A stretch of DNA of 64,000 nt from an archaeon (GTDB taxonomy: Archaea; Thermoproteota; Nitrososphaeria; Nitrososphaerales; Gagatemarchaeaceae): contig JAKASL010000002.1 of assembly GCA_021819035.1 (NCBI GenBank), positions 310,001-374,000 on the forward strand, in the 5' to 3' direction. The first letter of the stretch is position 1. The number at the start of each line of letters is the position of its first letter. The notes beneath the pieces were generated by a model. That model saw only the letters and a program-made list of their open reading frames with translations, did no database searches and was not told where the DNA came from. The position numbers and the translations under genes are program-made. Shown piece by piece: positions 897-32,345 of this stretch.

Positions 897-2516
897 TCAG
901 TCGTAGGTGACGACCCCCTTTTCGGTGTCGAACTTCACCTTGTACTTCTTCCCCTCGAGCTTCGGTGGGACGGCGAGCATGTCCGGCGTGTACTTCAGCC
1001 CCATCTTGTCGTATGCGGCCAGCTCGTAGTCGTTGGTCATGTCGAGGGCATCAAAAGGACAGGCATCTACGCACAATCCGCAGAAGACACAGTTATGAAT
1101 TGCGATATTTGCCGCGACGTAACTGTTGTCCTCTTCGACCTCGATGTTCTGCACAAGGCAATCCTTCACTTCCTGAACTTCGATCTTGGTCACAGGAGTG
1201 ACGATCATGCCCTCCCTGAGATGGACGTAGCTGTGGAAAACTTCGTTGTCCTGCGCGGAGACTCCTACGAGTTCCCCCATCTTCTTGACGTACGGCGTGT
1301 GGACGGTCACGGAATAGCGCAACTTCCGGTCCTTCTGTTTCTGTGTGCTTATGGAGGAGACTATTCCTACTCTGCCGAGCATGAAGTGTGTTTGCAACGC
1401 TAGCGTCTTCGATGTTGTCCGGGCAGTGAAATAGTTGGGATGCATCGCCGTCTTGTACTGATAATTCTCGTCTGAATAATGACCGTCGCCTCGGAATTCT
1501 CCTTTGATGATTTCCTTGATGTTCTCTCTAGGCAGGAGAACCATCCACCAAGGAACTTGTTTGACGTCGCAATGGTGACCGAATTGAGAAAAGAATGAAG
1601 CGACGCGCACCGAGTCCACGACGAGCTTCGACCCCAGGGAGTCTGGGTCAGGCTTCAGGGAGACGTTCTCCCCGAAAACCTTCGAAATACAAGTGATGAT
1701 GTCGTCTCTAAGACCTTCTTCGTCCTTATGGATGTCGAATGACACCCGGTAGCGGTCAGAAGCGCCTTCCGCAAGATAGTAACCAATTAGCCTCATCAAT
1801 TCAGGAGTAGTCTGAAGCGTGACTAGTTCAGCTGTGATAGACCCCCCTCTGCCAGCAGGATGGTAGAGCTCGTATGTGAAGTGAATTTCGTTGAGCGGTA
1901 TTTCCTCGGCGATGACCGGCCTAGTAAGATATGTTCGACACTCAATTTGGTTGGCGAAGACCCAGGAGATGCCATTCTCTCCGTATGTAAGTATGGGATG
2001 GTCTTCGGTCGTAGTCAGCGGCTCGTAATTGCCCAGCGTCTTGAACGTGTAGAGCTTCCCGGTATACGATCGGCTAAACAGCCTAGTGACCCTCCTGAAT
2101 TTTCCGGTGTGGGTAAGCACCTTGTCGCCGACCCGAATTTCAGACATCGGCTTGACGCCATCCATGGTGAGGATTGGAGTGGAGGGCGGGACGCACCTCC
2201 CGTAGTCGACGGCCGGCCAGATCTCCTTCTTGTTCTGGGGCTTCCCCTTCTCGACCTTCTGCATGTCGATCGCAACGGCGACCCCGTCGCAGGCTATCGC
2301 GCAGAGCTGGCAGCCGGTGCACTTCTCGAACCTGAGCAGGTGCCTCCCTTTGAACCCGGGGAGCCCGACCCCCTGCCTGGCGTCGTACCTGTATCCTTGC
2401 CCCTCGAGATCCTGCTTCTGTTCGGGGTAGCGCAGGGTCATCCGGGGACGGAAGAAGTGCCTCACCCCAGACCACGTCGCCACTAACACCCCTTTGATGT
2501 AGCCCAAAGTCCCCAC
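897..2516 (-). CDS. nuoI: Complex I subunit I (two 4Fe-4S ferredoxin subunit), interrupted by an intein
   Basis: Peripheral-arm subunit that passes electrons through two 4Fe-4S clusters towards quinone. The open reading frame extends further upstream, but those codons are a shadow of nuoH. The likely start is the GTG at 2516, which overlaps the nuoH stop (TAGTG). The first cluster motif is C-T-G-C-Q-L-C-A-I-A-C. The second is C-V-F-C-G-L-C-V-D-A-C-P, and its first cysteine is the residue right after a 368-residue intein at 1092-2195. Without the intein the protein is about 171 residues, normal for NuoI. The clusters can only form after splicing. Confidence 0.92.
   Translation of the reverse strand: MGTLGYIKGVLVATWSGVRHFFRPRMTLRYPEQKQDLEGQGYRYDARQGVGLPGFKGRHLLRFEKCTGCQLCAIACDGVAVAIDMQKVEKGKPQNKKEIWPAVDYGRCVPPSTPILTMDGVKPMSEIRVGDKVLTHTGKFRRVTRLFSRSYTGKLYTFKTLGNYEPLTTTEDHPILTYGENGISWVFANQIECRTYLTRPVIAEEIPLNEIHFTYELYHPAGRGGSITAELVTLQTTPELMRLIGYYLAEGASDRYRVSFDIHKDEEGLRDDIITCISKVFGENVSLKPDPDSLGSKLVVDSVRVASFFSQFGHHCDVKQVPWWMVLLPRENIKEIIKGEFRGDGHYSDENYQYKTAMHPNYFTARTTSKTLALQTHFMLGRVGIVSSISTQKQKDRKLRYSVTVHTPYVKKMGELVGVSAQDNEVFHSYVHLREGMIVTPVTKIEVQEVKDCLVQNIEVEEDNSYVAANIAIHNCVFCGLCVDACPFDALDMTNDYELAAYDKMGLKYTPDMLAVPPKLEGKKYKVKFDTEKGVVTYD
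1092..2195 (-). mobile_element. Intein with LAGLIDADG homing endonuclease inside NuoI
   Basis: In-frame protein intron of 368 residues. It starts with Cys1 (CVPPSTPILTMDGVKP, splicing block A), has a TxxH block B (TTTEDHPILT) and ends IAIHN, followed by Cys+1 of the extein, as required for class 1 splicing. The endonuclease blocks are visible as LIGYYLAEG and FRGDG, so this is a full-length homing intein, not a mini-intein. The insertion point immediately precedes the first ligand cysteine of the second 4Fe-4S motif. Its base composition is visibly more AT-rich than the flanking nuoI sequence, consistent with acquisition by transfer. Confidence 0.95.
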
Positions 2517-7787: not shown

Positions 7788-10484
7788 TCAGGTGCTCTTC
7801 ATCGTCTCCAGCTTCTCAGGGAGATAGGTATCCACGATGTAGCTGAGGCCGTACCTGGCGAAAGCCTCTTGCTCGCTCTTCCGCTTGTACTTTAGGAAGG
7901 TCTCGAGCTCGTCGTGCCACATCTTCTCGGTGTACCTCGGGTCGGACTTCAGCTCGTAGAGCCGCTTGATGTCGACTTCTGTCAGCTTGTCAGAAGGGAG
8001 TTTGTACTTCTGGATGTCGCTCGCGTACACCCCGAGCCACTTCGAGTTGGGGGTGGTCAGCTCTCGGAGGTGGGCCGCGTTAGCTGAGTTGTGAAGGAGG
8101 ATTCCAGAATGCCCTCCGATGAAGCGTTCCACTCCAGGGACTGAGACGTCATAGACGTATTCGTCCACCGGAGGAGTCTGTTCGATGCTGACAATGGGGT
8201 CGAAGCTGACGTCCGCTTTGACCAGCCCTAGCACGCTTGTCGCCAACTTACCCGCTTCCAGACCCAGGGGACTGGACTGGCATGAAAGCAGATGCGCCAG
8301 AACCGAAGACAGGTTATCCCTGTTCGTGCCGCCCTCCTTGCCAGACTGGGTTACTTCGCATATCCTCCCGTACAGGTTCCTGGACTTGGCGTCGTGCCGT
8401 ACATGCTTTCCGACCTCACGCTTCAGATTGACAACCCCGCTGGAAACTATTGGGAAGGCCTTGGGCATGAGGTATGAGCTATGGCTGGTCGATGCTATGT
8501 GGGAAACGATGGTAGCCCTATCGTCGTCATGGAGTACAGTTGAAACCAGCTTTTGCACCTCAGAAACCCCCGATACGATTAGGGAAATCTTGTCGCTTCC
8601 TATGGAACAGGCAATGCCGTTCTGGGCCATGAGGTAGGCCAGGTCGGACATCAACTCTGGGTTCTTCATCTTCCAGATCAATCCCCCCGAATTTGTGATG
8701 TATCCGTCACCAAAGCAGCCCTTGAGGAACTCTAGGACAAGCGCCTTTCTGGCAGAAAGCATCACCATGGGAATCCGTTTAAGTGCGAAACCAGTTCCGC
8801 ATAGTCTCAGGAAGAGCAATGCGGCGGGGGTGCCCCCAAACCGCAGGGTTACCCTGTTCCCCGGGGAATCGACAATCCTTTTGACGTTAGCGCGAGGAAA
8901 CACCGCCCGGATACAGGCCTCAGCGTCGTCGACTACCTCAGGCTCGTGCGGTCCGAACGAGAGCTCGACTGCCCTCGGGACCCCGTTCGCCTTCACTATC
9001 CTTCCCTCTGAGACGTAGTATCCGAAAAGGCAGGCCAGCTCCTTGGTGAGCCATATCCGCGCTGGCAGCATGTCGGGCGCCCTGCGGCTCCTGGAGCTGA
9101 CGAATAATCCGTGGAGATGCTTGCTCAGTTTAGGCTGCTGTCGCCCTTGCTCGAAGGTCTCGAGCCTTCTCCGGCTGTGGTATTTTGAACGCTCATCTTG
9201 GATGTGGATGAATAGCCGAGGAACCCGAACTTCCTTAGAGAGCGCCAGGAGTTCCTTGATGGAGTCTATGACTACCGGCCGGCTCCTTTGAATAGAATCG
9301 CCTCTTTCTATCACCAAAAGGTCTCCTGTGGTCAATTCGGTCGTGGGAACTGCCTTCAGCCGCCCCTCTCTCAGGACGAAGACGCTGTGGTTAGGCGTCA
9401 CGACGACTGTCCTACCGCTTGAAGTGGAAAGCCGATAAAGCGGTCCGGCGTGGCGATGACGGATTGCCGCCGACATGGGCTTGAACCGCACCCTATGGTC
9501 AGAGTCGACGCTTAGCGTTTCGAACGGGATGGCACCACATACCTCGTTTCCATTGGAATCATAGTAGTATCCGTAGTTGGCGATGCATTCATCTACGAAC
9601 TCCCCGATTTTGGTGATGCGGACCCCGCCTTTCGAATCCTTCACCACGATAGGTTCATCTCTTTGCACCGATCCTGATTTTATCACCATGGCTATGTGGG
9701 CCCCCCAGGGGTCAGCGTCGCAGAGGATTCCCACGGGGAGGCCGAGCTCCTGGTTCAGCCGCCTGATGAGGAAGCGCGTGGACCTTGGGGGCTGCCCTGC
9801 TGTATTGATGAGTATCGCTTTGTACTTTAGGTGCACCCTCTCCTCGATGAACCTCGTGAAAAGGCCGCCCTTCTCTATAGCCAGGACGACCTCCGCGTCT
9901 GTGTCCCTGAACTCAGCGGTGGTGAGCGCCGGTCCGATCATCACCCCATCGGGGTTCGCGGAGAGGTCAGCGGCCTTCCCCTCATAGCCTGGGACGGTAT
10001 ACTCTATTGTCATGTTCCCGAAGATCGCGCTCCTCTCTTCAGGGTAGATGTTCATCCCCTCCCTCGCCATCTGCATCAGGACCTCCAAGTCGGTGATCAG
10101 CTCGTCGGACTCGGCCTGGTCCTGGAACTCGACGTTGAACGCCTGGGCAGAATAGAACACGTCCCTGAGCGTGGAGGTGCGTTTCTCGTCCACCAGCTTC
10201 TTGGCGAAATAGGCAAGCCATACCAGCTGAGTGAACGGACGGATGTGCTTGATGTTCCCTGACGACTTCTTCACGGTGGTCGCGCCGAGCACGAACTGCT
10301 GCAGCTTCTTGTCGTAGACTATGTTCCGTACAGACCGGCTGGCCAGGGTCAGGCTTGGGAAGCGGCCTTCGTCCAGGTCGGCGTAGATGCTCGCTCCCAG
10401 CTCGTGGAGGAGCCCTTGGACGGCGTTCTGCCTCGTCTCAGCTGAACCTGTCGACTGCCTCTTTACTCTCTTCTTGGTTGACAT
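7788..10484 (-). CDS. top6A: DNA topoisomerase VI subunit A, interrupted by an intein
   Basis: Catalytic subunit of the type IIB topoisomerase and homologue of Spo11, which cuts both DNA strands through a tyrosyl link. The catalytic tyrosine lies in RDVFYSAQ. The Toprim metal residues are in AIEKGGLF (Glu) and CDADPWGAHI (Asp-x-Asp). I prefer the start MSTKKRVKRQ at 10484, which overlaps the end of top6B by 47 bases. The frame is open further upstream. A 528-residue intein (8088-9671) interrupts the protein shortly after the Toprim DAD motif. Without it the protein is about 370 residues, the usual size. Confidence 0.93.
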   Translation of the reverse strand: MSTKKRVKRQSTGSAETRQNAVQGLLHELGASIYADLDEGRFPSLTLASRSVRNIVYDKKLQQFVLGATTVKKSSGNIKHIRPFTQLVWLAYFAKKLVDEKRTSTLRDVFYSAQAFNVEFQDQAESDELITDLEVLMQMAREGMNIYPEERSAIFGNMTIEYTVPGYEGKAADLSANPDGVMIGPALTTAEFRDTDAEVVLAIEKGGLFTRFIEERVHLKYKAILINTAGQPPRSTRFLIRRLNQELGLPVGILCDADPWGAHIAMVIKSGSVQRDEPIVVKDSKGGVRITKIGEFVDECIANYGYYYDSNGNEVCGAIPFETLSVDSDHRVRFKPMSAAIRHRHAGPLYRLSTSSGRTVVVTPNHSVFVLREGRLKAVPTTELTTGDLLVIERGDSIQRSRPVVIDSIKELLALSKEVRVPRLFIHIQDERSKYHSRRRLETFEQGRQQPKLSKHLHGLFVSSRSRRAPDMLPARIWLTKELACLFGYYVSEGRIVKANGVPRAVELSFGPHEPEVVDDAEACIRAVFPRANVKRIVDSPGNRVTLRFGGTPAALLFLRLCGTGFALKRIPMVMLSARKALVLEFLKGCFGDGYITNSGGLIWKMKNPELMSDLAYLMAQNGIACSIGSDKISLIVSGVSEVQKLVSTVLHDDDRATIVSHIASTSHSSYLMPKAFPIVSSGVVNLKREVGKHVRHDAKSRNLYGRICEVTQSGKEGGTNRDNLSSVLAHLLSCQSSPLGLEAGKLATSVLGLVKADVSFDPIVSIEQTPPVDEYVYDVSVPGVERFIGGHSGILLHNSANAAHLRELTTPNSKWLGVYASDIQKYKLPSDKLTEVDIKRLYELKSDPRYTEKMWHDELETFLKYKRKSEQEAFARYGLSYIVDTYLPEKLETMKST
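8088..9671 (-). mobile_element. Large intein with LAGLIDADG endonuclease inside Top6A
   Basis: The intein begins with Ser1 (SVQRDEPIVVKDSKGG), has block B with TPNHSVFV, and ends GGHSGILLHN before Ser+1 of the extein. The joined extein reads VIKSG-SANAAHLREL, which matches uninterrupted Top6A proteins. The endonuclease blocks LFGYYVSEG and LKGCFGDG are both present, so this looks like a complete homing intein. At 528 residues it is the longest of the three inteins in the window. The insertion is within the Toprim fold, a few residues past the metal-binding DAD motif. Confidence 0.94.
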
Positions 10485-29122: not shown

Positions 29123-30064
29123 ATGGAGAAGACAGAGAAGCTAGTGATAATTGGGTCTGGGCCCGCTGGCCTCACAGCGGCCATCTACGGGTGCAGGGCA
29201 GACCTCGAGCCCTTGGTATTCATGGGGACCAAGTATGGCGGCCAGCTGATGCTGACGAGCGAAGTGGAGAACTTCCCCGGGTTCCCTGATCCGGTCCTCG
29301 GGCCTGACCTGATATCAAAGATGAAGTCCCAGGCGGAGAGGCTCGGGGCCAGGCTTGTCCAGGAAGACGTCGTCAAGGTCAATTTCAGAAGCTACCCGTT
29401 TGAAGTCTACACCGGCGCAGGCGTGACGAAGGCCCTCGCGGTCATCATAGCCACCGGCGCCAACCCCAGGAGGCTGGACCTTCAGTCCGAGATGAGACTG
29501 ATGGGCAAGGGGGTATCCAACTGCGCCGTGTGCGACGGGTTCTTCTTCAGAGGGAAGAGGGTGGCCGTGGTCGGAGGCGGTGACACTGCGATGGAGGAGG
29601 CGACGTTCTTGACAAAATTTGCCTCGTCGGTGCAGGTGATCCACAGGAGGGGCGAGCTCAGGGCGAGCGCAGCCCTGAAGAAGGAGGCGTTCGAGAACCC
29701 GAAGATCAGTTTCATCTGGGACTCTGCCGTCACGGAGGTGATTGGGGAGAAGAAGGTGGAGGGAGCCAGGGTCAAGAACCTGAAGACCGGGAGCGAGAGC
29801 GAGATACCCGTGGATGGCCTCTTCGTCGCCATCGGCTATGAGCCGAACACGGAGATATTCAGGGGACAGTTGGAGCTTGACCCCAAGGGATATCTGGCGG
29901 TCCGCAATGGGACGGAGAGCAGCGTCCTCGGCGTCTTCGTAGCGGGTGACGTCCACGACTTCAGGTACAGGCAGGCGATAACCGCGGCGGCAGACGGATG
30001 CAAGGCTCTCCTGGATGCTGAGAAGTTCTTGAAGAACAAACTGGAAGTCAAAGCCGCTAGCTGA
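29123..30064 (+). CDS. trxB: Thioredoxin reductase
   Basis: FAD/NADPH flavoenzyme that reduces thioredoxin. The FAD motif IIGSGPAGLTAA is at residues 9-20, the redox pair CAVC at 134-137 (NCAVCDGFFF), the NADPH motif VAVVGGGDTAMEEA follows, and the C-terminal FAD motif GVFVAGDVHD is complete. At 313 residues it is the normal low-molecular-weight form. It ends overlapping the convergent radical SAM gene by 8 bases. Confidence 0.96.
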   Translation: MEKTEKLVIIGSGPAGLTAAIYGCRADLEPLVFMGTKYGGQLMLTSEVENFPGFPDPVLGPDLISKMKSQAERLGARLVQEDVVKVNFRSYPFEVYTGAGVTKALAVIIATGANPRRLDLQSEMRLMGKGVSNCAVCDGFFFRGKRVAVVGGGDTAMEEATFLTKFASSVQVIHRRGELRASAALKKEAFENPKISFIWDSAVTEVIGEKKVEGARVKNLKTGSESEIPVDGLFVAIGYEPNTEIFRGQLELDPKGYLAVRNGTESSVLGVFVAGDVHDFRYRQAITAAADGCKALLDAEKFLKNKLEVKAAS

Positions 30065-32345
30065 TCACAGTGACGAACCTGTCCCCGGATGCTGACTTGC
30101 TTAGCGGACCGACTATGGGGGTCTTGTAGCCGCAGGATATGCACCTGCTCCGGCTGTCCAGGTTGTACTCCAAAATCTCGTAGCTGTAGCGCCTTATCAG
30201 TACTGCGCCGCACCCGGGGCAGTAGGTGCTCTCGTCTCTGTGGCCGGGGACGTTGCCGATGTAGACGTAGTTCAGGCCCGCCTTCCTGCCTACAGCCACG
30301 TGCCTCTCGAGGGTCTCCACCGGGGTCGGAGGGAGGTCCATCATCTTGTAGTCTGGGTGGAAGCGGAGGAAATGGATTGGGACGTCGGGGCCGAGGTTGT
30401 CGTAGACCCAGGCGCAGAGATTCTCGGCGCTGGAGAGGGAGTCCCCGACTTCGGGGATGACCAGGTCGGTTATCTCGATGTGGACCTTTCCCCTGCGCTT
30501 CGTCTCAAGCAGGCTCTGGAATATGGGGTCGGCGTTCGGGATTCCGATGTAGCTTCTGACGAACTTCGTCTCTCCGCTCCCCTTGAAGTCGACGGTTACG
30601 CAATCCAGGAAGTCGTCCATCATGGCGACGGTTTCAGGGGTGTCGTACCCGTTTGATACGAAGATGTTGAAGAGCCCCTTCGACCTGGCGATCCTTCCCA
30701 CGTCCCGCGCGTACTCCATGAAGATGGTGGGCTGGTTGTAGGTGTACGCCATCCCCTCGCAGCCGTAGGCCAGGGCCTTGGAGACCATGTCCTCCGGAGC
30801 GGCTTCCACCCCCTCGATCTTCCTCCGCTGGCTGATGTCATAGTTCTGACAGTTGCTTACGGCCACGAAGCAGGCGGTGTAGGTGTGGTCTTCCTCGACC
30901 TCCAGATTGTAGACGTCCCCTTCGTAATCCTCGGAACGAATGGTCCGTATCGGCACCAGCCAGCCGTTCTCGGTCTCGATGATTTTCGTAGCGCGACCAA
31001 CGTTCTCAGAGTCGCTTGCCGTCAGGACTCTGGTCATGTAGTCATTGTGCCGGTTGACCACACGACCTTCAATTTCGTAGGCCGGTGGATTGTTCGAGAC
31101 GTAGAAGCGTGGGGCCAGCCCTTGCCGGAACATCAAATACCACACACCCAGCGTCAGCCCTTGGGAGACTGACGTCGTACCAATCCAGCTCTGTTTCCCG
31201 TTCTTGGTCTTGAAGCCGTCACCGCGCATGTAGCCTCGTAGAAACCCGCTGCGGATGGGCGTGGAAGTATTCAGGAGGACGAAGTCAGGCACCTTCTTGG
31301 AGTAGCAATCAGACCCCATGGTGTAGGCAAAAAGAGCCCCCAATTCGCCACTCCCCACTGTAACCCGCGTCACTGGGCCCTGGGTCACCCGGCGGGGATG
31401 GACCCCGAAGATTCGCACGAGGAGTTCCTCCGCTCTGCCTATCAGGTCTGCTTCGTGAGTACCGAAGGATAGACACAACGTCCAGCTGTTGGGACGGTTT
31501 GACGCCCGAATGCTAGATCCCTCTGCGGCGTAGAGACCTAATAACTCCCCGAAGTCTTCGTTCAATTCTAACGTTCTGGGCAGTCCGGTTCCCTTGGATC
31601 GTGAGAAACGGACGTGGCGATTATCGAAATCCAGCCTGGCATAATGGGCGTCCCCCATCAATTCGTCCATTACCGAGGTGAGGACCATTGCGACGTCCAA
31701 ATTGGGAGAGACTAGCGTGGCCTTGGCCCTAGGGACCATAAGGTAGTCTCCAGCACGCGCCTGGTCCGCCCTCCGCTTGACTGGCTCGCCCGACTTCTTG
31801 TCCGCCACTAGCAAGCCATGGTTGGGAGTGCAGCGCAGTTCAGGCAGATAGAACGGCCTGACTCTGAGCATCTTGCCGCGATACCTGTGTCTGAACGCCT
31901 TGTCCACGAACCTCCAGTGCCCCGTGTGGGAGAGGACTCTGATCGAGTCTGGAAACACGATTTCATCCGAGGACCCCGAGGATGAATAGATCTGGTCAAT
32001 TGACATGACTCCTCGGTCGGTAAGAACAGGTGTTCCAGGAGCAATGCAGTAGCGGCAGAGCCAATTGCACCCTGAGGTGGCCATGGAGAAGATCTTCGAG
32101 CCAGGTTTGAAGTGGACGACGGGCTTCTTTTCGATGGGGTCGATGTGACCGGCCATGACCCTGCCGTAGACCAGGAGGTAGAGCTTCCCGCCTACGACCC
32201 CCCTGACCCCGCACAGGCCCACCTGGCCTTCCCCCAGCTGGCAGAGCCTCGCGCAGGCGGTGCACTGGACCTTCCCGGCAGGCAGGTCGCGGAACAGCTC
32301 GGCGGCCTTGCCCGAGGGTTCTGTGAGACGAGGCTGTGAGGACAC
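30057..32345 (-). CDS. AmmeMemoRadiSam-type radical SAM enzyme, interrupted by an intein
   Basis: Resembles pyruvate formate-lyase activating-enzyme-like proteins of the AmmeMemoRadiSam group. An N-terminal cysteine-rich segment (CTACARLCQLGEGQVGLCG) precedes the radical SAM motif C-N-W-L-C-R-Y-C. A 399-residue intein starts at the third motif cysteine, and after splicing the sequence runs on as CQNYDISQRRKIEG. A C-terminal zinc-ribbon-like part (CPGCG, CISCG) follows. Without the intein it has 363 residues, the usual size. The start is GTG at 32345 with a TTAAT element about 30 bases upstream. The substrate is unknown; no Memo or AMMECR1 gene is nearby. Confidence 0.92.
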   Translation of the reverse strand: MSSQPRLTEPSGKAAELFRDLPAGKVQCTACARLCQLGEGQVGLCGVRGVVGGKLYLLVYGRVMAGHIDPIEKKPVVHFKPGSKIFSMATSGCNWLCRYCIAPGTPVLTDRGVMSIDQIYSSSGSSDEIVFPDSIRVLSHTGHWRFVDKAFRHRYRGKMLRVRPFYLPELRCTPNHGLLVADKKSGEPVKRRADQARAGDYLMVPRAKATLVSPNLDVAMVLTSVMDELMGDAHYARLDFDNRHVRFSRSKGTGLPRTLELNEDFGELLGLYAAEGSSIRASNRPNSWTLCLSFGTHEADLIGRAEELLVRIFGVHPRRVTQGPVTRVTVGSGELGALFAYTMGSDCYSKKVPDFVLLNTSTPIRSGFLRGYMRGDGFKTKNGKQSWIGTTSVSQGLTLGVWYLMFRQGLAPRFYVSNNPPAYEIEGRVVNRHNDYMTRVLTASDSENVGRATKIIETENGWLVPIRTIRSEDYEGDVYNLEVEEDHTYTACFVAVSNCQNYDISQRRKIEGVEAAPEDMVSKALAYGCEGMAYTYNQPTIFMEYARDVGRIARSKGLFNIFVSNGYDTPETVAMMDDFLDCVTVDFKGSGETKFVRSYIGIPNADPIFQSLLETKRRGKVHIEITDLVIPEVGDSLSSAENLCAWVYDNLGPDVPIHFLRFHPDYKMMDLPPTPVETLERHVAVGRKAGLNYVYIGNVPGHRDESTYCPGCGAVLIRRYSYEILEYNLDSRSRCISCGYKTPIVGPLSKSASGDRFVTVIS
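30852..32048 (-). mobile_element. Intein with LAGLIDADG endonuclease at a radical SAM cysteine
   Basis: A 399-residue intein beginning CIAPGTPVLTDRGVM (Cys1), with a block B TPNHGLLV, endonuclease blocks LLGLYAAEG and LRGYMRGDG, and the end CFVAVSN before Cys+1. The extein cysteine after the junction is the third ligand of the CxxxCxxC cluster motif, so the enzyme cannot bind its 4Fe-4S cluster until the intein leaves. Its composition is less GC-rich than the extein. Confidence 0.95.

Follow-up and report, generated by a model that had tools for sequence, protein, structure and literature searches.

The locus and its intein

The subject of this analysis is an intein in a stretch of archaeal DNA 64,000 nucleotides in length (the ‘window’; C2:310001-374000), which comes from a genome assembled to 1.67 Mb in three contigs and 88% complete. 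The intein interrupts the gene for a radical S-adenosylmethionine (SAM) enzyme of the AmmeMemoRadiSam system. The precursor gene (30057..32345) lies on the reverse strand, as do all window features given below; it starts with GTG and encodes 762 amino acids, matched by TIGR04337 and PF04055. Its extein halves identify the host as AmmeMemoSam_rS (here ‘AmmeMemoSam’), with E=4.8e-97 and 324.9 bits on TIGR04337 against a curated cut-off of 220. Other intein hosts are named here by motif reading, except where a Pfam or NCBIfam match is cited.

The N-extein (32049..32345) ends ...SGCNWLCRY, with the first and second Cys of the cluster motif CxxxCxxC at −7 and −3, and the C-extein (30060..30851) starts CQNYDISQ. 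Between them, the first-pass annotation had placed an intein at 30852..32048, and this is exact to the base: the junctions read ...SGCNWLCRY / CIAPGTPV...FVAVSN / CQNYDISQ, and the insert is exactly 399 codons. It runs from Cys1 to Asn399, with Ser in the penultimate position, and matches PF14890 and TIGR01445; searched alone, it scores E=4e-13 on Intein_splicing (PF14890) and E=1.3e-9 on LAGLIDADG_3. Also as first proposed, it is the third ligand of CxxxCxxC that stands at +1. Its codon (TGT, 30849..30851) would thus specify both a ligand of the cluster and the nucleophile of splicing, and the predicted product of excision, CNWLCRY joined to CQN, would regain the motif. At the same point, intact relatives read straight through as CNWLCRYCQNYDISQ or close variants, and so represent the homologous empty site.

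The features of a class 1 intein are present: Cys1, the TxxH of block B, Asn399 and Cys+1. Block B is CTPNH (residues 73-77; 31818..31832, computed from the intein start). Across 18 aligned members of this allele, the window's included, Cys1 is found in 18/18, and so are Cys73, Thr74 and His77. The LAGLIDADG endonuclease region (about residues 169-279 by alignment; 31212..31544; PF14528) retains both motifs with an acidic residue, ELLGLYAAEG and FLRGYMRGDG. The dodecapeptide acids are Glu176 and Asp277, which we take to be the catalytic acids of the endonuclease. A search of solved structures matched six inteins, all distant.

Distribution of the allele

Two insertion sites occur in AmmeMemoSam genes: ‘site b’, that of the window, before the third Cys, and ‘site a’, three codons upstream, before the second. 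Among 61 genomes (the window genome and its relatives), 58 have a match to the host gene and 13 an intein in it. Seven of these are at site b (G000, G017, G024, G027, G032, G035 and, in part, G031) and six at site a (G005, G025, G036, G049, G052 and G057). Within the window's genus of 31 genomes, there are four copies with site b, two with site a, 21 uninterrupted and four that are ambiguous (G004, G021, G022 and G030). Of the uninterrupted genus copies, 20 were read and one (G026) was judged from its match only; uninterrupted copies have CNWLCRYCQN or near variants.

When named genomes were scanned with six site-b inteins, 64 loci were matched, of which 47 were read; the other 17 carry mostly Lachnospiraceae, Clostridia and Bacillota titles. 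The host is AmmeMemoSam in 22 of the 47, and by their record titles these span about seven phylum-level groups of archaea and bacteria: Rokubacteria (6), thaumarchaeal (5), Acidobacteria/Blastocatellia (5), Chloroflexi/Anaerolineales/Thermoflexales (3), and Diapherotrites, Micrarchaeota and Falkowbacteria (1 each). The named relatives closest to the window's intein (L069-L073) have the titles archaeon, Thaumarchaeota, Nitrososphaerales and, in one case, bacterium. In 21 of the 22 AmmeMemoSam loci the C-junction is at C(Q/H)N, that is, at the third Cys; the N-junction could not be placed in L080, L081 and L086. The exception is a rokubacterial intein (L089:1514-2810) whose frame is lost just before the C-junction, through sequencing error or decay. 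One locus (L105) has a 172-aa form at site b, free of the endonuclease.

The 17 full-length AmmeMemoSam site-b rows form one clade (support 100/99) in a tree of 49 inteins. The NuoI, Tes, Hel308 and other inteins fall outside it, many on long branches. The tree omits L105, the MoxR intein and two Tes mini-inteins (all ≤300 aa), L069 (a near copy) and the NadE intein. Because the 17 rows group together, it seems that a single lineage of inteins has stayed at one site in archaea and bacteria alike. A search of viral contigs for relatives of the site-b intein gave 165; the best 80 of the 165 are 21-33% identical to it, and none of the 43 that were read has an AmmeMemoSam host.

Recent movement

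G000 and G024 are congeneric, and their inteins are identical at 1187 of 1197 nucleotides (99.2%). Outside the intein, identity is about 93% throughout: 277/297 in the N-extein, 738/792 in the C-extein, 835/898 in the upstream flank and 841/899 in the downstream flank. Of the 399 intein codons, three differ synonymously and seven non-synonymously; of the 363 extein codons, 39 and 20. The first 392 nt of the C-extein hold three differences, against 10.2% in the remaining exteins (binomial P=8e-15, Fisher 2e-11), and look co-converted with the intein. We read the pattern as repeated gene conversion at a homing site, with either genome as the possible donor.

Mechanism

Our reading is that the element is a homing intein of the Cys1/Asn/Cys+1 kind, with a LAGLIDADG endonuclease, lodged in a radical SAM enzyme of the AmmeMemoRadiSam type directly ahead of its third cluster Cys, in keeping with the known preference of inteins for conserved sites. 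We give this a probability of about 0.87; it builds on the anatomy, the homologous empty sites, the spread of one clade across phyla and the recent transfer with its converted-looking flank. As long as the intein is in place, the precursor would be unable to bind its [4Fe-4S] cluster properly. Excision would proceed by an N–S acyl shift at Cys1, transesterification onto the +1 Cys and cyclisation of Asn399, and the freed +1 Cys would then become the third cluster ligand. We infer that splicing should precede cluster binding there, since transesterification depends on the +1 thiol. An active endonuclease would cut empty alleles at the conserved CxxxCxxC codons, and repair would copy the intein together with some flanking DNA. 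The site may have been favoured for three reasons: it is among the least variable coding DNA of the gene, it offers a Cys ready to act as the +1 nucleophile, and imprecise loss would kill the enzyme.

Some observations weigh against this reading. The penultimate His of class 1 inteins is absent from the window's intein, where Ser398 takes its place, and this could slow the cyclisation of Asn. Such a His is usual in inteins, not obligatory, and in the 18 aligned allele members the residue is Ser in 10, Lys in four, His in two, and Ala and Gly in one each. The 392-nt stretch was picked post hoc, and G000 and G024 diverge unevenly. Differences per 99 nt of the C-extein are 2, 0, 1, 2, 25, 2, 11 and 11, so that short quiet stretches occur elsewhere too, and those of the N-extein are 7, 2 and 11. 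G024 is also mosaic upstream of the intein. The final 95 nt of its N-extein equal those of an empty relative (L044), and in the comparison that includes this relative the three 99-nt windows upstream of the intein have 15, 11 and 1 differences, counted towards the intein. The identity with the empty relative implies more than one exchange.

That inteins favour conserved functional sites is published. Native intein sites are more conserved, and nearer to active sites, than other Cys, Ser and Thr residues (mean 8.3 vs 21.1 Å; 2012, PMC3359363), and a review describes insertion sites as coinciding with catalytic or ligand-binding sites (PMC7765530). A survey of eukaryotic inteins notes that they often occupy active sites or conserved domains, and quotes a figure of 70% of bacterial and archaeal inteins in ATP-binding proteins (PMC5784728). 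Intein-bearing radical SAM proteins, too, are already modelled by NCBI. What is new is a further allele of a known kind, together with the unusual, repeated targeting of one metal motif. No paper on an intein in AmmeMemoSam enzymes was found by title or abstract opening, in a search that did not have AmmeMemoRadiSam as a term and covered subscription journals little.

Parasite or regulator?

A different possibility is that the intein regulates its host. Cys(−3), Cys1, Cys73 and Cys+1 would surround a single active site and act as a redox or iron gate, in which a disulfide or a bound metal would keep the oxygen-sensitive enzyme in its precursor form until the surroundings turn reducing. MoaA is itself a radical SAM enzyme, and the intein of Pyrococcus abyssi MoaA reportedly also precedes the third Cys, with the N-extein Cys reportedly numbered Cys(−3). 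Under oxidising conditions, Cys1 of that intein forms a disulfide with a Cys of the N-extein, and the first step of splicing is blocked (review, PMC10663303). The window's intein likewise has N-extein Cys residues near Cys1 in sequence, at −3 and −7. The redox trap has been tested in the MoaA intein (PMC10663303); in the window's intein it is a possibility suggested by the sequence. Cys73 adds to the case. It is invariant in the 18 aligned members from two domains, including the endonuclease-free form and members with identity to the window's intein down to about 30%, and a Cys beside block B recurs in only two of 35 other inteins compared (GlmS of the window genome and the epimerase intein L091), block B having been located there by pattern, unsurely in a few.

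Other evidence tells against regulation. The host motif requires a Cys at −3, which therefore says nothing about selection; Cys73 may have a part in the splicing reaction; and patchy presence with fresh transfer suits a parasite. Nor did a search confirm the site of the MoaA precedent: in the family of a Thermococcus genome (G537), archaeal MoaA was matched above the cut-off in 58 of 61 genomes, each time uninterrupted. We consider a regulatory role unlikely, and the homing intein described above the better account. An intein at a cluster ligand does couple self-splicing to the assembly of a metal site, in that the same thiol would splice and then bind iron. The invariance of Cys73 throughout the lineage makes the question of parasite or sensor directly testable.

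A second allele at the same motif

The inteins at site a start CHP and end VHN, followed by CxxCQN, so that the second cluster Cys is the +1 residue. Five of the six aligned members are 353-354 aa in length. They match DUF559 and, under its cut-off, the restriction-type fold REase_MTES_1575; no LAGLIDADG match was found in the aligned site-a inteins by profile search. The sixth, that of G036 (L056), is 193 aa and has lost the nuclease.

A profile search with these six gave matches in 17 of 400 genomes of the class, 276 of which match AmmeMemoSam at E≤1e-15. Fifteen of the 17 are in AmmeMemoSam, with the C-junction CxxCQN (for G087, the two halves were recognised on separate contigs), and two (G009 and G084) are in an Mrp-like ATPase at PPG / TGD. 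The N-junctions of L218-L223 and L226 were not placed; their C-junctions were read. Site-a hosts are of two kinds of AmmeMemoSam copy, SGCSWA/TGCNWL and VSCNWH, and site-a inteins (L049, L051, L056-L059; L213-L227) occur across several families of the class. No copy among those read holds inteins at both sites, and a search of viral contigs with the site-a intein found no relative. Mrp-like ATPase inteins at PPG / ...HN / TGD are found in L228, L229 and L305, of which L228 and L229 match the site-a profile.

Haloarchaeal MCM genes are comparable in that separate insertion sites lie close together in one gene (PMC10643990). There, the host is a replicative helicase; in AmmeMemoSam the sites are three codons apart, in one metal motif, and the inteins carry nucleases of two families. 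An MCM-like frame of the class (L269, in G084) exceeds 2200 aa and has about five intein sites, one of which, HN / TRFDTIF, is known from its C-junction alone.

Other inteins at iron–sulfur ligands

Elsewhere in the window, the NuoI gene has an intein of 368 aa (1092..2195), with the junctions DYGR / C...HN / CVFCGLCVDACP; here the +1 residue is the first Cys of a ferredoxin-type CxxCxxCxxxC motif. The topoisomerase VI subunit A gene has another (8088..9671; 528 aa), with the junctions IKSG / S...HN / SANAAHL, where +1 is Ser and the site is not at a cysteine. The original observation that two unrelated hosts in the window share an iron–sulfur (Fe–S) ligand at +1 therefore stands: the first Cys in NuoI and the third in the radical SAM enzyme. 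When the two inteins were compared, as had been suggested, they took separate places in the 49-intein tree. Common origin was accordingly rejected, and the placements look independent.

The next-best NCBIfam model on the window protein is NF045703, a model of intein-bearing Tes (tetraether lipid synthase) proteins. Tes inteins resemble that of the window in preceding the third Cys of CxxxCxxC in a radical SAM host: in L342, L343, L344 and L417 the junctions are CNFSCWY or CNLNCWY / C...SN / CFF. L417, from Thermococcus, scores 2097.7 bits on NF045703, above the cut-off of 1700, and the inteins of L343 and L344 are endonuclease-free and 235 aa. They differ in belonging to another host family, in lacking a Cys before block B and in falling outside the AmmeMemoSam clade (one row, on a long branch). 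A single lineage for the third-Cys inteins of the two families was rejected, since the 17-row clade excludes that Tes row; its long branch calls for caution. A further Tes intein (L418:643-3783, +; genome G457) precedes the first Cys, VTNR / C...VSN / CNMACPVC. With the second and third Cys used in AmmeMemoSam and the first and third in Tes, all three ligands of CxxxCxxC serve, on the junctions as read, as the +1 residue somewhere.

The Rv2578c-family radical SAM inteins (NF038136) may occupy the same kind of motif position as site a. The alignment of the model with a site-a precursor (L049) starts ahead of Cys1 and extends to the +1 Cys (E=4.7e-9); the host family is a different one, and it is this model alignment that points to the site. 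Two more inteins at Fe–S ligands are in different proteins. L107 (2806-4383, +), in an assembly titled Candidatus Njordarchaeum guaymaensis, encodes a NifU/IscU-like scaffold (NifU_N, E=5.6e-42) interrupted at its first conserved Cys (GNPVCGD): GNPV / C...HN / CGDLMW. L137 (2188-4254, +) is a radical SAM/SPASM protein on a viral contig (SPASM, E=6.8e-9), whose intein interrupts the auxiliary-cluster domain at a Cys: DVIL / C...HN / CCMDW. A SufB-like protein by motif reading (L318) has its intein at DGNIG / C...HN / SKITMKYP, with Ser at +1; this site presumably differs from that of the studied mycobacterial SufB intein.

Is there a preference for iron–sulfur ligands?

From the two placements in the window, the first-pass annotation had drawn a broader interpretation: Fe–S ligand cysteines are specially favoured, because sites at which a metal site is restored exactly once the intein is lost are selected for or tolerated. 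Exact restoration holds for any intein at any site and therefore cannot explain the choice of this one. A survey of the kind proposed there was made with TIGR01445 in 61 genomes of the class, and gave 107 matches in 34 genomes. All were placed by eye except one (L306), whose C-junction lies beyond the contig. With four further inteins of the window genome, these come to about 43 host/site alleles (by eye), nine of them at Walker A loops. Eleven of the 43 have Cys at +1: Vps4-like, MCM Walker B, KlbA, ribonucleotide reductase (NPCGE), ribosomal protein S12, RtcB, release factor aRF1, epimerase, NuoI, radical SAM a and radical SAM b. The last three are Fe–S ligands (3/11).

The expectation was taken from 159 reciprocal best pairs in stretches of G000 and G045, two genomes of one order, with 201 conserved Cys. 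Nine of these (4.5%; confidence interval 2.1-8.3) are in linear Fe–S motifs, a slight undercount, as motifs split by inteins are missed and the window's third Cys is scored as non-Fe–S. On this basis the probability of at least 3 of 11 is 0.011 (0.001-0.057 over the interval), with two of the three alleles coming from the window that prompted the question. A smaller null of 39 pairs (3/39 Fe–S, 7.7%) gives P=0.047, and one that disregards conservation (32/1606, 2.0%) P=0.001. When the window genome is excluded, the other 60 genomes have one Fe–S ligand among seven Cys+1 alleles (P=0.27). Enrichment for Fe–S ligands as intein sites is thus possible but not shown.

Seven Fe–S +1 positions are now at hand (the second and third Cys of AmmeMemoSam, the first and third of Tes, and those of NuoI, L107 and L137), but they are a biased sample: the window supplied two, searches with radical SAM models another three, and scans that started from the site-b intein the remaining two. 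The 4.5% expectation covers linear motifs only, and 77 of the 201 conserved Cys have a CxxC-like context. Other Cys+1 sites look just as functional and are not Fe–S: those of RtcB, ribonucleotide reductase (NPCGE), release factor (YxCxxxF), C5-methyltransferase (PC) and IMP dehydrogenase, whose Cys we take to have functional roles of their own. A special preference is, in our estimation, improbable. What holds of the first interpretation is that the placement recurs in unrelated hosts and that radical SAM motifs are targeted repeatedly. Placement follows the known intein rule and not an Fe–S-specific one, and against that rule the window's intein is ordinary.

With three ligands used, two adjacent alleles and spread across domains, the motif offers a compact natural system for telling parasite from sensor among inteins at metal sites. 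The boldest answer would make CxxxCxxC an intein hotspot, hit at each ligand by independent lineages with two families of nuclease, and Cys73 a redox or iron switch that yields enzyme only when the cell is reducing and iron-replete; we regard this combination as doubtful. That the locus is a pseudogene, with a decaying intein or host gene, is very improbable: the penultimate His is gone and some relatives look broken (L089, and G025 with a TAG in frame downstream of its site-a intein), but the 762-aa frame is open, Cys1, Thr74, His77, Asn399 and the +1 Cys are retained, and the predominance of synonymous extein differences between G000 and G024 fits a constrained frame.

Other inteins of the window genome

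Fourteen inteins were read in the window genome. Their hosts are the radical SAM enzyme, NuoI, topoisomerase VI subunit A, an actin-like protein, MoxR, PolB, GlmS, a Vps4-like protein, eIF2-gamma, RadA, CDC48, Hel308, an epimerase and NadE. Four of the 14 are at Walker A loops (MoxR, Vps4-like, eIF2-gamma and RadA) and two at Fe–S ligands. The epimerase intein (L067:1054-3027, +) has a DUF559-type nuclease (E=3.9e-6) and adjoins the YxxxK motif of its host, with the junctions YGASKLA / C...HN / CEAW.

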